This document shows, in pieces, positions 25,929 to 29,525 of a DNA stretch of 64,000 nt. The translations under genes and the position numbers were made by a program. Source of the stretch: Leptotrichia massiliensis (GTDB taxonomy: Bacteria > Fusobacteriota > Fusobacteriia > Fusobacteriales > Leptotrichiaceae). The stretch is taken from the NCBI RefSeq assembly GCF_900104625.1, contig NZ_FNVZ01000002.1, positions 1-64,000 of the forward strand. Reading direction: 5' to 3'. The notes under the pieces are model-generated. The model made no database searches, had not been told where the DNA came from, and saw nothing but the letters and a program-made list of their open reading frames with translations. The stretch's first letter is position 1. Every line of letters starts with the position of its first letter.

Positions 25929-26330
25929 ATGGAACTTAAGGATATTCAAGAATTGATGCAAGTTCTAAAAAAAGAAGATCTAGCAGAAATTAAAGTAAGA
26001 TACGGAAAAGTAAAGCTTACATTAACAAATTCTGAAACATTAAATACTGTAAACAATCAAGGATCAACATCAAAAAAAGAAGAAAAAGAAACTCCAAAAC
26101 CTGCATTACCAGTAGAGGAAATTATTACATCAGGTAATGTTGGAAAAATAAAGTTATTAAGCTCAAAAACAGGAACAGTGGTAAAAAAAGGGCAAATTCT
26201 TGCTAAAGTTAATACAATGGGAATTGATAATGAGGTAAAATCAACTGTAAATGGTATTTTAACAGAAATTCTTGTTGCAGACGGTTCAGCTGTGGATTTT
26301 GCAAAAGAATTATTTAAAATTGAAGTGTAA
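25929..26330 (+). CDS. accB: AccB-like biotin carboxyl carrier protein lacking the biotinyl lysine
   Basis: A 133-residue AccB homologue with an N-terminal helical segment (1-40), a linker (about 41-62) and a C-terminal biotinyl-like fold. The acceptor hairpin, normally E-A-M-K-M, reads N-T-M-G-I at residues 95-99, so Gly98 (GGA) replaces the lysine that carries biotin. The flanking strands still match (VVKKGQILAKV, NEV, GILTEILVADGSAV, LFKI). The thumb segment is also shortened. It cannot be biotinylated at the usual place. The neighbours (accC, asp23, nusB) are the standard acc cluster. GAGGAGG precedes the ATG. Confidence 0.88.
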   Translation: MELKDIQELMQVLKKEDLAEIKVRYGKVKLTLTNSETLNTVNNQGSTSKKEEKETPKPALPVEEIITSGNVGKIKLLSSKTGTVVKKGQILAKVNTMGIDNEVKSTVNGILTEILVADGSAVDFAKELFKIEV

Positions 26331-26456: not shown

Positions 26457-27812
26457 ATGTTCAAAAAAATATTAATAGCAAACAGAGGAGAAATTGCTGT
26501 TAGAATAATCAGAGCAGCAAGAGAATTAGGAATAGCAACTGTTGCAGTTTATTCAGAAGCTGACAAGGAATCACTTCACGTAAAGCTGGCTGATGAAGCT
26601 ATTTGTATTGGAACTGCAAGTAGTGCAGATTCATACTTAAAAATACCTAATATTATTTCAGCAGCACAAATAACAGGAAGTGAAGCCATTCACCCTGGAT
26701 ATGGTTTTTTAGCAGAAAATCAAAGATTTGCTGAAATATGTGACAAAAACGAAATTGTCTTTATTGGACCAAAACCTGAATTAATCAATATGATGGGAGA
26801 TAAAGCAACAGCAAGGGAAACAGCTATCAAGCATAAAGTTCCTATAACAAAAGGTTCTGATGGAATTGTGCCAAATGTAGAAGAGGCAAAAAAAGTTGCA
26901 CAATGGATAACTTATCCCGTTATGATAAAAGCCACTGCTGGTGGTGGTGGTAAAGGAATGAGAATCGCCCACAACGAAAAAGAACTAGTGGAAAATTACA
27001 CTGCTGCACAAAATGAAGCAAAGGCTGCATTTGGAAATCCAGATGTCTACATTGAAAAATATGTGGAAGAACCAAGACATGTTGAAATACAAGTTGTTGG
27101 GGATAAATTTGGAAATGTCGTTCATTTAGGAGAAAGAGATTGCTCTATTCAAAGACGACACCAAAAATTAATAGAAGAATCCCCATCAGCAGGAATTGAT
27201 TCCAAAACACGTGAAAAAATGGGTAAATTTGCAGCAAAATTAGCTAAAGGTATTGGTTACGATAGTGTTGGAACATTGGAATTTCTCGTTGATAAAAATA
27301 TGAATTTCTATTTTATGGAAATGAATACCAGAATTCAAGTAGAACATACAGTAAGTGAAGAAATTACTGGGGTTGACTTAATAAAAGAACAAATAAGAGT
27401 AGCTGCAGGAGAAAAATTAAGTATTTCTCAAAAAGATATAAATATCAATGGACATGTAATAGAATGTAGAATTAATGCGGAAGATTCTGAAAATGGATTT
27501 TTACCTTCATCTGGAATACTGGAAACATATATTCCATCTGGAGGAATTGGAGTAAGAGTCGACTCACATTCTTATCAAAATTACGAAATCCCACCTTACT
27601 ACGATTCAATGATAGCAAAACTTATCGTAAAAGGTAAAAACAGAGAAGAAGCTATTGCAAGAATGAAACGTGCTTTAAAGGAATTTATTATAGAAGGTGT
27701 TGACACAACTATACCATTTCACTTAAAAGTACTTGATAATCAAGACTTCAAAAAGGGAACTATCTATACAAATTTTATTGAAACACACTTTAAGGAAGCA
27801 CTTGGCAAATAA
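26457..27812 (+). CDS. accC: acetyl-CoA carboxylase biotin carboxylase subunit
   Basis: Carboxylates biotin on its carrier protein with ATP and bicarbonate, the first half-reaction of fatty acid synthesis. The 451-residue protein has HPGYGFLAEN, the ATP-grasp glycine loop GGGGKGMR, ERDCSIQRRHQKLIEESP, and the catalytic NTRIQVEHTVSE segment. It looks fully functional, unlike the adjacent accB. TAGGAGGAT precedes the ATG. The gap to accB is 126 bases. Confidence 0.96.
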   Translation: MFKKILIANRGEIAVRIIRAARELGIATVAVYSEADKESLHVKLADEAICIGTASSADSYLKIPNIISAAQITGSEAIHPGYGFLAENQRFAEICDKNEIVFIGPKPELINMMGDKATARETAIKHKVPITKGSDGIVPNVEEAKKVAQWITYPVMIKATAGGGGKGMRIAHNEKELVENYTAAQNEAKAAFGNPDVYIEKYVEEPRHVEIQVVGDKFGNVVHLGERDCSIQRRHQKLIEESPSAGIDSKTREKMGKFAAKLAKGIGYDSVGTLEFLVDKNMNFYFMEMNTRIQVEHTVSEEITGVDLIKEQIRVAAGEKLSISQKDININGHVIECRINAEDSENGFLPSSGILETYIPSGGIGVRVDSHSYQNYEIPPYYDSMIAKLIVKGKNREEAIARMKRALKEFIIEGVDTTIPFHLKVLDNQDFKKGTIYTNFIETHFKEALGK

Positions 27813-27905: not shown

Positions 27906-28301
27906 ATGAACGAATTAGGAAATGTAAATATATCACAGGAAGTAGTAGCAACAATTGCAGAATCAGTAGTATCAGAAATCGAGGGAGTAAACAGCCTTGT
28001 TGGTGGAACTTCTAAAAATGAAATTGTTAAATTTTTCCAAAATGTATCTTCAGGTGGTAAAGGTATTGAAGTAGAAGTTGGAGAAACTGAATGTACACTA
28101 GATTTATACATTGTAGCAAAAATGGGACACAAATTACCTGCATTAGCTGGAGAAATCCAAACAAAGGTAGTAAAAGCAATTACTGAAATGACAGGACTAA
28201 AAGTTCAAGAAGTTAATGTTTATATTCAAAAAATTGTCAAAGAAGACAAGAAAGAAGTTGTTCAAACAGCTGTAGCAGAAACAGCAGAAATTGAAGAATA
28301 A
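27906..28301 (+). CDS. Asp23/Gls24 family envelope stress protein
   Basis: A 131-residue Asp23-like protein (YqhY position). Typical segments are GNVNISQEVVATIAESV, EIEGVNSLVGG, and a C-terminal VQEVNVYIQKI. In Bacillus the protein in this position influences acetyl-CoA carboxylase. AGGAGGAATTAAA precedes the ATG. It follows accC and precedes amaP, which in Staphylococcus anchors Asp23 to the membrane. Confidence 0.92.
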   Translation: MNELGNVNISQEVVATIAESVVSEIEGVNSLVGGTSKNEIVKFFQNVSSGGKGIEVEVGETECTLDLYIVAKMGHKLPALAGEIQTKVVKAITEMTGLKVQEVNVYIQKIVKEDKKEVVQTAVAETAEIEE

Positions 28302-28464: not shown

Positions 28465-29115
28465 ATGATTGCAATATTAGGATTTTTGGCAAAATTATCT
28501 GTTATACTCGGATTTATTGGAATCGCGTTTTCAAGTATATCAGATATGCTGTTTAAGACTGATTATTTAGGACAGCTTGATAATTTTATTGATTTAAATA
28601 GTTTAAATTTTAAAATTTTAGTTGGAATACTATCAATTATTTATTTAGTCATATTTTTACTTTCTTACATTAACAAACTTACAAAATATTCTCAGAATAG
28701 AAAAGTTAAAAATAAAAATGGAGAACTTGAAGTTTCCATAAAAACAATAAATGAAACATCAAAAGACTTTTTAAGTGGATTGGAAATTATAAAAAACTCA
28801 AAAGTGAAATCATATCCAAGTGGAAAAGCAGTCATTATAGAGGCCACTGTGGACACTTACAACGTCGATAATCTCAATGAAAAATTAATAGATATTCAAA
28901 ATAAATTATCTGACTATATTTTTCAAGCAACTGGGATTACCGTGAAAAAAAGTAAAGTAAAATTGAAAAAAGTTTTAGGTGAAACAATCATTGAGAAAAA
29001 AATCATTGATTCTCCAGCTGTTCAAAAGGAAGAAAATAATAATAACGAAAACACAAATTTAAAAAACGAAAATGAGGCACAAAATGAAACTTCCCCATCT
29101 GGAAAGGAAAATTAA
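28465..29115 (+). CDS. amaP: alkaline shock response membrane anchor protein AmaP
   Basis: A 216-residue protein with two membrane helices (about 5-25 and 48-70) joined by a short loop, then an Asp23-like cytoplasmic domain and an Asn/Glu-rich tail. This is the AmaP layout; it tethers Asp23 to the membrane. No clear ribosome site precedes the ATG: the only AAAGGAGAG is 80 bases upstream, and an in-frame stop at 28450 excludes a longer form. The stop overlaps the nusB start (TAATG). Confidence 0.85.
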   Translation: MIAILGFLAKLSVILGFIGIAFSSISDMLFKTDYLGQLDNFIDLNSLNFKILVGILSIIYLVIFLLSYINKLTKYSQNRKVKNKNGELEVSIKTINETSKDFLSGLEIIKNSKVKSYPSGKAVIIEATVDTYNVDNLNEKLIDIQNKLSDYIFQATGITVKKSKVKLKKVLGETIIEKKIIDSPAVQKEENNNNENTNLKNENEAQNETSPSGKEN

Positions 29116-29525
29116 TGACACGAAGAGGAATTAGAGAAGAAATATTTAAACTTCTTTTTGAATATGAATTAATTGACAACAATATTGATAAAAGAATAAA
29201 TGATGTAATTAATGAAGAAAATTTTAAAAAAGATGAAGAAATTGACTTTTTAAGAAGTTATGTCACAGAAATAATTGAAAATCAGAATATTCTAATTGAA
29301 AAAATACGGGAAGTGCTAGACGGTTGGACTTATGAGCGTTTGGGAACAATAGAAAAAGTTTTGTTAAAAATATCTTTTTATGAAATTACTATAAAAGATA
29401 TAGGATATGAAATAGCGATTAATGAAGTTCTTGAAATTGCAAAAAAATATTCCTACAATGATACCAAAGACTTTTTAAACGGAATTCTTGCAAAATTAGT
29501 ACAAAATATTAAAGACGAAAAATAA
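29115..29525 (+). CDS. nusB: transcription antitermination factor NusB
   Basis: RNA-binding protein that joins NusE on rRNA boxA to prevent early termination. The 136-residue all-helical protein shows TRRGIREEIFKLLFEYEL, WTYERLGTIEKVLLKISFYE, and the ending FLNGILAKLVQN. Length is typical. Its start overlaps the amaP stop, and GGAAAGGAAA within amaP is its ribosome site. The accB-accC-asp23-nusB order matches Bacillus. Confidence 0.95.
   Translation: MTRRGIREEIFKLLFEYELIDNNIDKRINDVINEENFKKDEEIDFLRSYVTEIIENQNILIEKIREVLDGWTYERLGTIEKVLLKISFYEITIKDIGYEIAINEVLEIAKKYSYNDTKDFLNGILAKLVQNIKDEK

Follow-up and report, generated by a model that had tools for sequence, protein, structure and literature searches.

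Acetyl-CoA carboxylase catalyses the committed step of fatty acid synthesis. Non-catalytic paralogues of its carrier protein BCCP are described, in the literature that we searched and as far as its accessible text goes, only for plants, where it is disputed whether they act as glue or as inhibitor. The Arabidopsis proteins BADC1-3 (biotin/lipoyl attachment domain-containing) are BCCP paralogues without the biotinyl lysine, found beside a true BCCP and a separate biotin carboxylase; the accessible part of a 2025 NMR paper presents BADC as glue for BC-BCCP (PMC11926652), while the portion of another study available to us describes competition with BCCP (PMC7712654). In Chloroflexus BC1, according to the accessible sections of PMC11077971, four BCCP N-terminal hairpins form a barrel linking two biotin carboxylase dimers, and this barrel, not the biotinyl core, is required for the tetramer and for full activity. 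As for gene order, Fusobacteria are named among the phyla with the accBC-yqhY arrangement in the available excerpts of PMC5437119, in which we found no mention of a missing lysine in the gene that occupies the accB place of these bacteria. Similarly, the open-access literature searched, as far as its text was available, yielded no description of a bacterial BADC-like or motif-less BCCP paralogue.

Here, we analysed such a paralogue from Leptotrichia massiliensis. It lies in a window of 64,000 nucleotides (the whole stretch of DNA that was analysed), with the following features:

25929..26330, + strand: lysine-less BCCP paralogue, accC-linked, 133 aa, ATG start, frame intact
25935..25973, + strand: N-terminal helix, residues 3-15, part of the BCCP N-terminal oligomerisation region (AlphaFold2, pLDDT about 77)
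25986..26027, + strand: N-terminal beta-hairpin, residues 20-33 (AlphaFold2)
26040..26102, + strand: flexible linker, residues 38-58 (pLDDT under 50)
26115..26327, + strand: C-terminal biotinyl-like domain (BCCP fold), residues 63-133, thumb shortened
26220..26222, + strand: codon 98, GGA (Gly), in the place of the biotinyl lysine
26457..27812, + strand: accC, biotin carboxylase, 451 aa (Biotin_carb_N, CPSase_L_D2 and Biotin_carb_C all found with Pfam; TIGR00514, 741 bits)
27906..28301, + strand: Asp23-family protein, YqhY-like (PF03780, 88 bits)
28465..29115, + strand: 216-aa ORF between asp23 and nusB (no Pfam match at 1e-5)
29115..29525, + strand: nusB (PF01029, 80 bits)

Codons 95-99 read AAT ACA ATG GGA ATT, confirming the N-T-M-G-I motif with Gly98 instead of lysine that the original prediction had reported; GGA is two base changes away from AAA/AAG, and the hairpin turn is without any lysine. 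That the protein is an AccB homologue with an intact frame is borne out by matches to Biotin_lipoyl (PF00364, 39.3 bits, cut-off 22.1) and to the BCCP equivalog TIGR00531 (E=3e-11), and its top PDB sequence match, with the family profile used, is E. coli BCCP (4hr7_B). It shares with AccB/BCCP the two-part architecture, the fold and the operon place in accBC-yqhY, but differs in lacking the biotinyl lysine of the E-A-M-K-M/L hairpin, in scoring 44 bits against the curated TIGR00531 cut-off of 115.2, and in forming a separate clade. The neighbours are those of the predicted accB-accC-asp23-nusB cluster, plus the 216-aa ORF between the last two. Gene order is the same as in the B. subtilis accBC-yqhY operon, with the lysine-less gene occupying the position of accB. 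The adjacent accC, judged from its sequence, is apparently complete. It starts 126 bp after the stop codon of the lysine-less gene, and a crude promoter/terminator scan found no terminator-like site between the two and only promoter-like matches barely above those in shuffles; upstream of the lysine-less gene, no RNA element scored above the gathering score.

An AlphaFold2 single-chain model of moderate confidence (53-row alignment, mean pLDDT 72.7, pTM 0.43) places helix 3-15 and hairpin 20-33 ahead of a disordered linker and a biotinyl-type barrel, the arrangement of a BCCP. Indeed, its top Foldseek domain matches are BCCPs (1bdo, TMt 0.81, rmsd 2.0; 2ejf_C, TMt 0.92 for the barrel). The thumb of the C-domain is shortened in Leptotrichiaceae members, and hairpin residues are kept across the lysine-less family (E20 in 96%, K29 in 93%). 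The hairpin region is thus kept. In Chloroflexus BC1, the BCCP hairpin joins BC dimers with no need for the biotinyl core, although there it forms part of the same chain as BC and the core carries biotin (PMC11077971).

The lysine-less gene and accC go together in the Fusobacteriota genomes searched. We searched 98 genomes of the phylum with profiles for the lysine-less family, accC, accD and BCCP, counting only accC matches above the cut-off and compiling the genome sets by hand from the search tables. Both genes occur together in 81 of the 98 genomes, neither in 17, and one alone in none, a tally that is partly trivial for neighbouring genes in draft genomes. The lysine column reads glycine in all 86 rows, five of which represent the same gene twice, so that glycine is found in 81/81 accC-bearing genomes; relatives with lysine at this position, which would have pointed to a strain-specific mutation, are absent from this set. 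At every locus that includes accC, the lysine-less gene precedes it on the same strand, mostly with a stop-to-start gap of 1-50 bp; the gap of 1223 bp at L067 is an artefact of start-codon parsing, because two open frames abut there. One locus (G032) is cut by a contig end, and the accC of this genome lies on another contig beside a fragment of the lysine-less gene. Of the 48 longer loci, 47 have Asp23 downstream, the contig ending too early in the remaining one, and 44 have nusB. A contig scan by the N-terminal pattern alone recovered just two family members.

None of the 17 genomes without accC has a complete lysine-less gene. In one of them (G072, 71% complete), the family profile matches partially where a contig ends, and two incomplete ones (G091, G095) have a pyruvate-carboxylase-type match only. 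The remainder belong mostly to small-genome genera in which accD is also missing, with accD retained in G086 and in the three genomes of genus g19 (G045, G070, G071); in the latter, accC, the lysine-less gene and a TIGR00531-grade AccB were not found.

Within the genus, the lysine-less protein has a median dN/dS (NG86) of 0.19 (10 genomes), compared with 0.14 in true AccB (6 genomes) and 0.036 in AccC (10 genomes). When the regions of the lysine-less protein are taken separately, the value is 0.08 in residues 1-36, 0.58 in the linker (37-62) and 0.10 in residues 63-133; both folded domains are under strongly purifying selection and the linker is not. Codon 98 is GGA in nine genomes and GGG in one. 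In a 132-row tree, the 80 lysine-less rows fall on one side of a branch as one clade (support 100/99). Across the phylum, mean identity of the N- and C-domains is 0.38 and 0.42 in the lysine-less protein and 0.42 and 0.62 in true AccB, so that it is the C-domain that has been relaxed in comparison with true AccB, while the N-domain is no better conserved than its counterpart.

If this protein cannot carry biotin, either a biotinylatable carrier is encoded elsewhere or malonyl-CoA is made differently, as the original prediction had argued, and the second, lysine-containing BCCP that it proposed to look for is present. The genome of the window has five Biotin_lipoyl match sites: the lysine-less gene, three with E-A-M-K, and a 576-aa frame on C5 (L004) in which the ORF list gives a 344-aa dihydrolipoamide acyltransferase-like protein. 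The three carriers and accD are located as follows:

C3:4742-5200: AccB, 157 aa, EAMKLM, beside folD (L001; TIGR00531, 141.7 bits)
C5:1447171: AccB in a 5-oxoprolinase-type locus, E-A-M-K (L003)
C4:437357: decarboxylase gamma-like carrier, E-A-M-K (L002)
C5:1585620-1586396: accD

An accA-like ORF, recognized by eye from its translation, overlaps accD, and there are two BirA-like biotin ligase matches above the cut-off. With AccB, accA/accD and two ligases, the genome holds the full ordinary set of parts plus the extra lysine-less protein; malonyl-CoA synthesis is thus ordinary in outline, and the suggestion of a different route to malonyl-CoA falls away. Lysine-bearing carriers are likewise encoded in other genomes: 40 further loci, the best BCCP matches of 39 Fusobacteriota genomes, all carry E-A-M-K and are unlinked to the accC cluster. 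Among the 22 of these loci that were listed, most have folD as one neighbour of AccB, in many cases separated from it by a short ACT-like ORF, and corC- or ndk-like genes as the other (names from reading the translations). The lysine AccB is a free-standing gene without an adjoining carboxyltransferase in most Fusobacteriota. In two genomes of two families, no AccB-like lysine carrier was found other than the C-terminal domain of a carboxyltransferase frame of 611-612 aa:

L101:936-2768 (G034): carboxyltransferase-fused carrier, HMGL-like and PYC_OADA domains confirmed
L102:491-2326 (G033): carboxyltransferase-fused carrier

Here, a single carrier may serve two enzymes.

To find relatives of the lysine-less protein outside the phylum, we searched 291 other genomes. 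Direct reading of six that scored high with the family profile showed lysine in each; the other 285 were searched with TIGR00531, and we read 60 best-scoring loci and about 70 more, mainly weak or second matches, a choice that favours exceptions, so that no frequency can be drawn from it. Nine genomes of eight families have a lysine-less BCCP (L203, L206, L218, L220, L243, L247, L248, L263, L268), with the following residues in the lysine position:

Gly: G114 and G261 (both f23), G168, G331, G359
Asp: G388
His: G376
Asn: G219, G239

In six of the nine (G114, G261, G168, G331, G359, G388), accC lies directly downstream; no accC was found within the few kb read around the other three (G219, G239, G376). 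No asp23 was seen near the accC-linked copies in the stretches read. Reading of other loci showed an AccB with lysine in G114, G168, G388 and G359 and, within a 629-aa frame (L221), in G376; among the matches listed, G261, G219 and G239 have a second TIGR00531 match and G331 has none. When four of these cases were placed in a 100-row tree, L218 grouped with accC-linked BCCPs that have the lysine and not with the Fusobacteriota clade, indicating at least two losses of the lysine; another two attach to the Fusobacteriota clade (97/78), but their branches are long and we do not rely on this placement.

The Fusobacteriota protein has two features of the BADC type: it is a BCCP paralogue without the biotinylation motif, and it occurs alongside a BCCP that has the lysine and a biotin carboxylase. 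It differs from plant BADC in being bacterial, in lying directly upstream of accC, in its fixed glycine and in the thumb shortened in Leptotrichiaceae, and its origin is probably separate. The distribution and the linkage suggest that bacteria, too, have a non-catalytic acetyl-CoA carboxylase subunit like the plant one. Going further, on balance we lean towards the view that bacteria repeatedly evolved a BADC-like non-catalytic BCCP from an accC-linked copy of accB, and that it is an obligate fifth subunit in all accC-bearing Fusobacteriota. The comparison with BADC, made already in the original prediction, is thus apt as an analogy; the dampening of the enzyme that came with it is not established, and the phylum-wide pairing with accC fits an assembly subunit at least equally well.

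With a hairpin region under strong constraint, in a gene that adjoins accC and was never found without it, a structural subunit is the best-supported reading: the lysine-less protein is probably a non-catalytic subunit made together with AccC, which would scaffold or tune the AccB-AccC complex. According to this model, a paralogue that could no longer be biotinylated, having kept the N-terminal helix and beta-hairpin and the C-terminal BCCP fold, would be produced with AccC from one gene cluster, would most likely bind AccC and mix with the biotinylated AccB encoded elsewhere, and would serve as a dedicated fifth subunit of the Fusobacteriota acetyl-CoA carboxylase. The AccB-AccC subcomplex would then hold both carrier and non-carrier subunits, and the latter would keep AccC in its active oligomer and set the number of biotinylated arms per AccC.

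Other roles for the protein have to be weighed against this one. It might act as a brake, which at lipid surplus would compete for AccC with the biotinylated AccB and depress carboxylase activity, in keeping with the inhibitor model of BADC, and competition between BADC and BCCP for access to BC is indeed described in the available parts of some plant studies (PMC7712654, PMC11926652). The physical linkage of the accBC cluster to asp23/yqhY points the same way: when this gene is lost in B. subtilis, mutations in every one of the ACC subunits are selected, according to the accessible text of PMC5437119. We nevertheless consider a brake rather unlikely, since it could be lost by itself, yet never was in 98 genomes, and a place directly before accC at short spacing suits a fixed stoichiometry better than regulation. 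The constant company of asp23 and nusB, together with the shortening, in Leptotrichiaceae, of a thumb that contacts BirA in an E. coli model (PMC10863985, in its available part), would fit a protein that has left the carboxylase for another partner, such as Asp23 or a biotin ligase, or become a regulator acting on its own mRNA. Such a departure is improbable given that genera lacking the enzyme have neither this gene nor accC and AccB, and that the accC-linked copies outside the phylum showed no asp23 nearby in the stretches read.

It is also conceivable, though at a very low probability, that the subunit channels a single housekeeping AccC between AccAD and a pyruvate/oxaloacetate carboxyltransferase, with one lysine carrier common to both. 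The carboxyltransferase-fused carriers of the two Fusobacteriota families agree with this, as does the 629-aa frame that holds the lysine carrier of one outside genome; the free-standing AccB of most Fusobacteriota does not. Finally, a decaying duplicate, a strain mutation or a sequencing error, which has nothing in its favour except the missing lysine, can be set aside with near certainty: glycine in 81/81 genomes, synonymous GGA/GGG variation and strong purifying selection rule it out, in line with the earlier judgement that this is not random decay.

The single gene noticed at first belongs to a family that runs through the phylum, and there are more examples, partly independent, outside it. 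Were the protein a non-catalytic carboxylase subunit, this would explain how acetyl-CoA carboxylase is assembled in Fusobacteriota, and the dispute over glue and inhibitor could be put directly to the test in bacteria that have a single gene of this kind in each genome, within the accC cluster. For metabolic models and biotin-labelling work, it matters that the gene in the accB place of the Fusobacteriota accBC cluster is not the biotin carrier.

The genome of the window also encodes a second accC (L280, G000:C4:67021) beside a LamB/YcsF-type gene, which, together with the lysine AccB at L003, apparently makes up a 5-oxoprolinase-type set divided between two loci.
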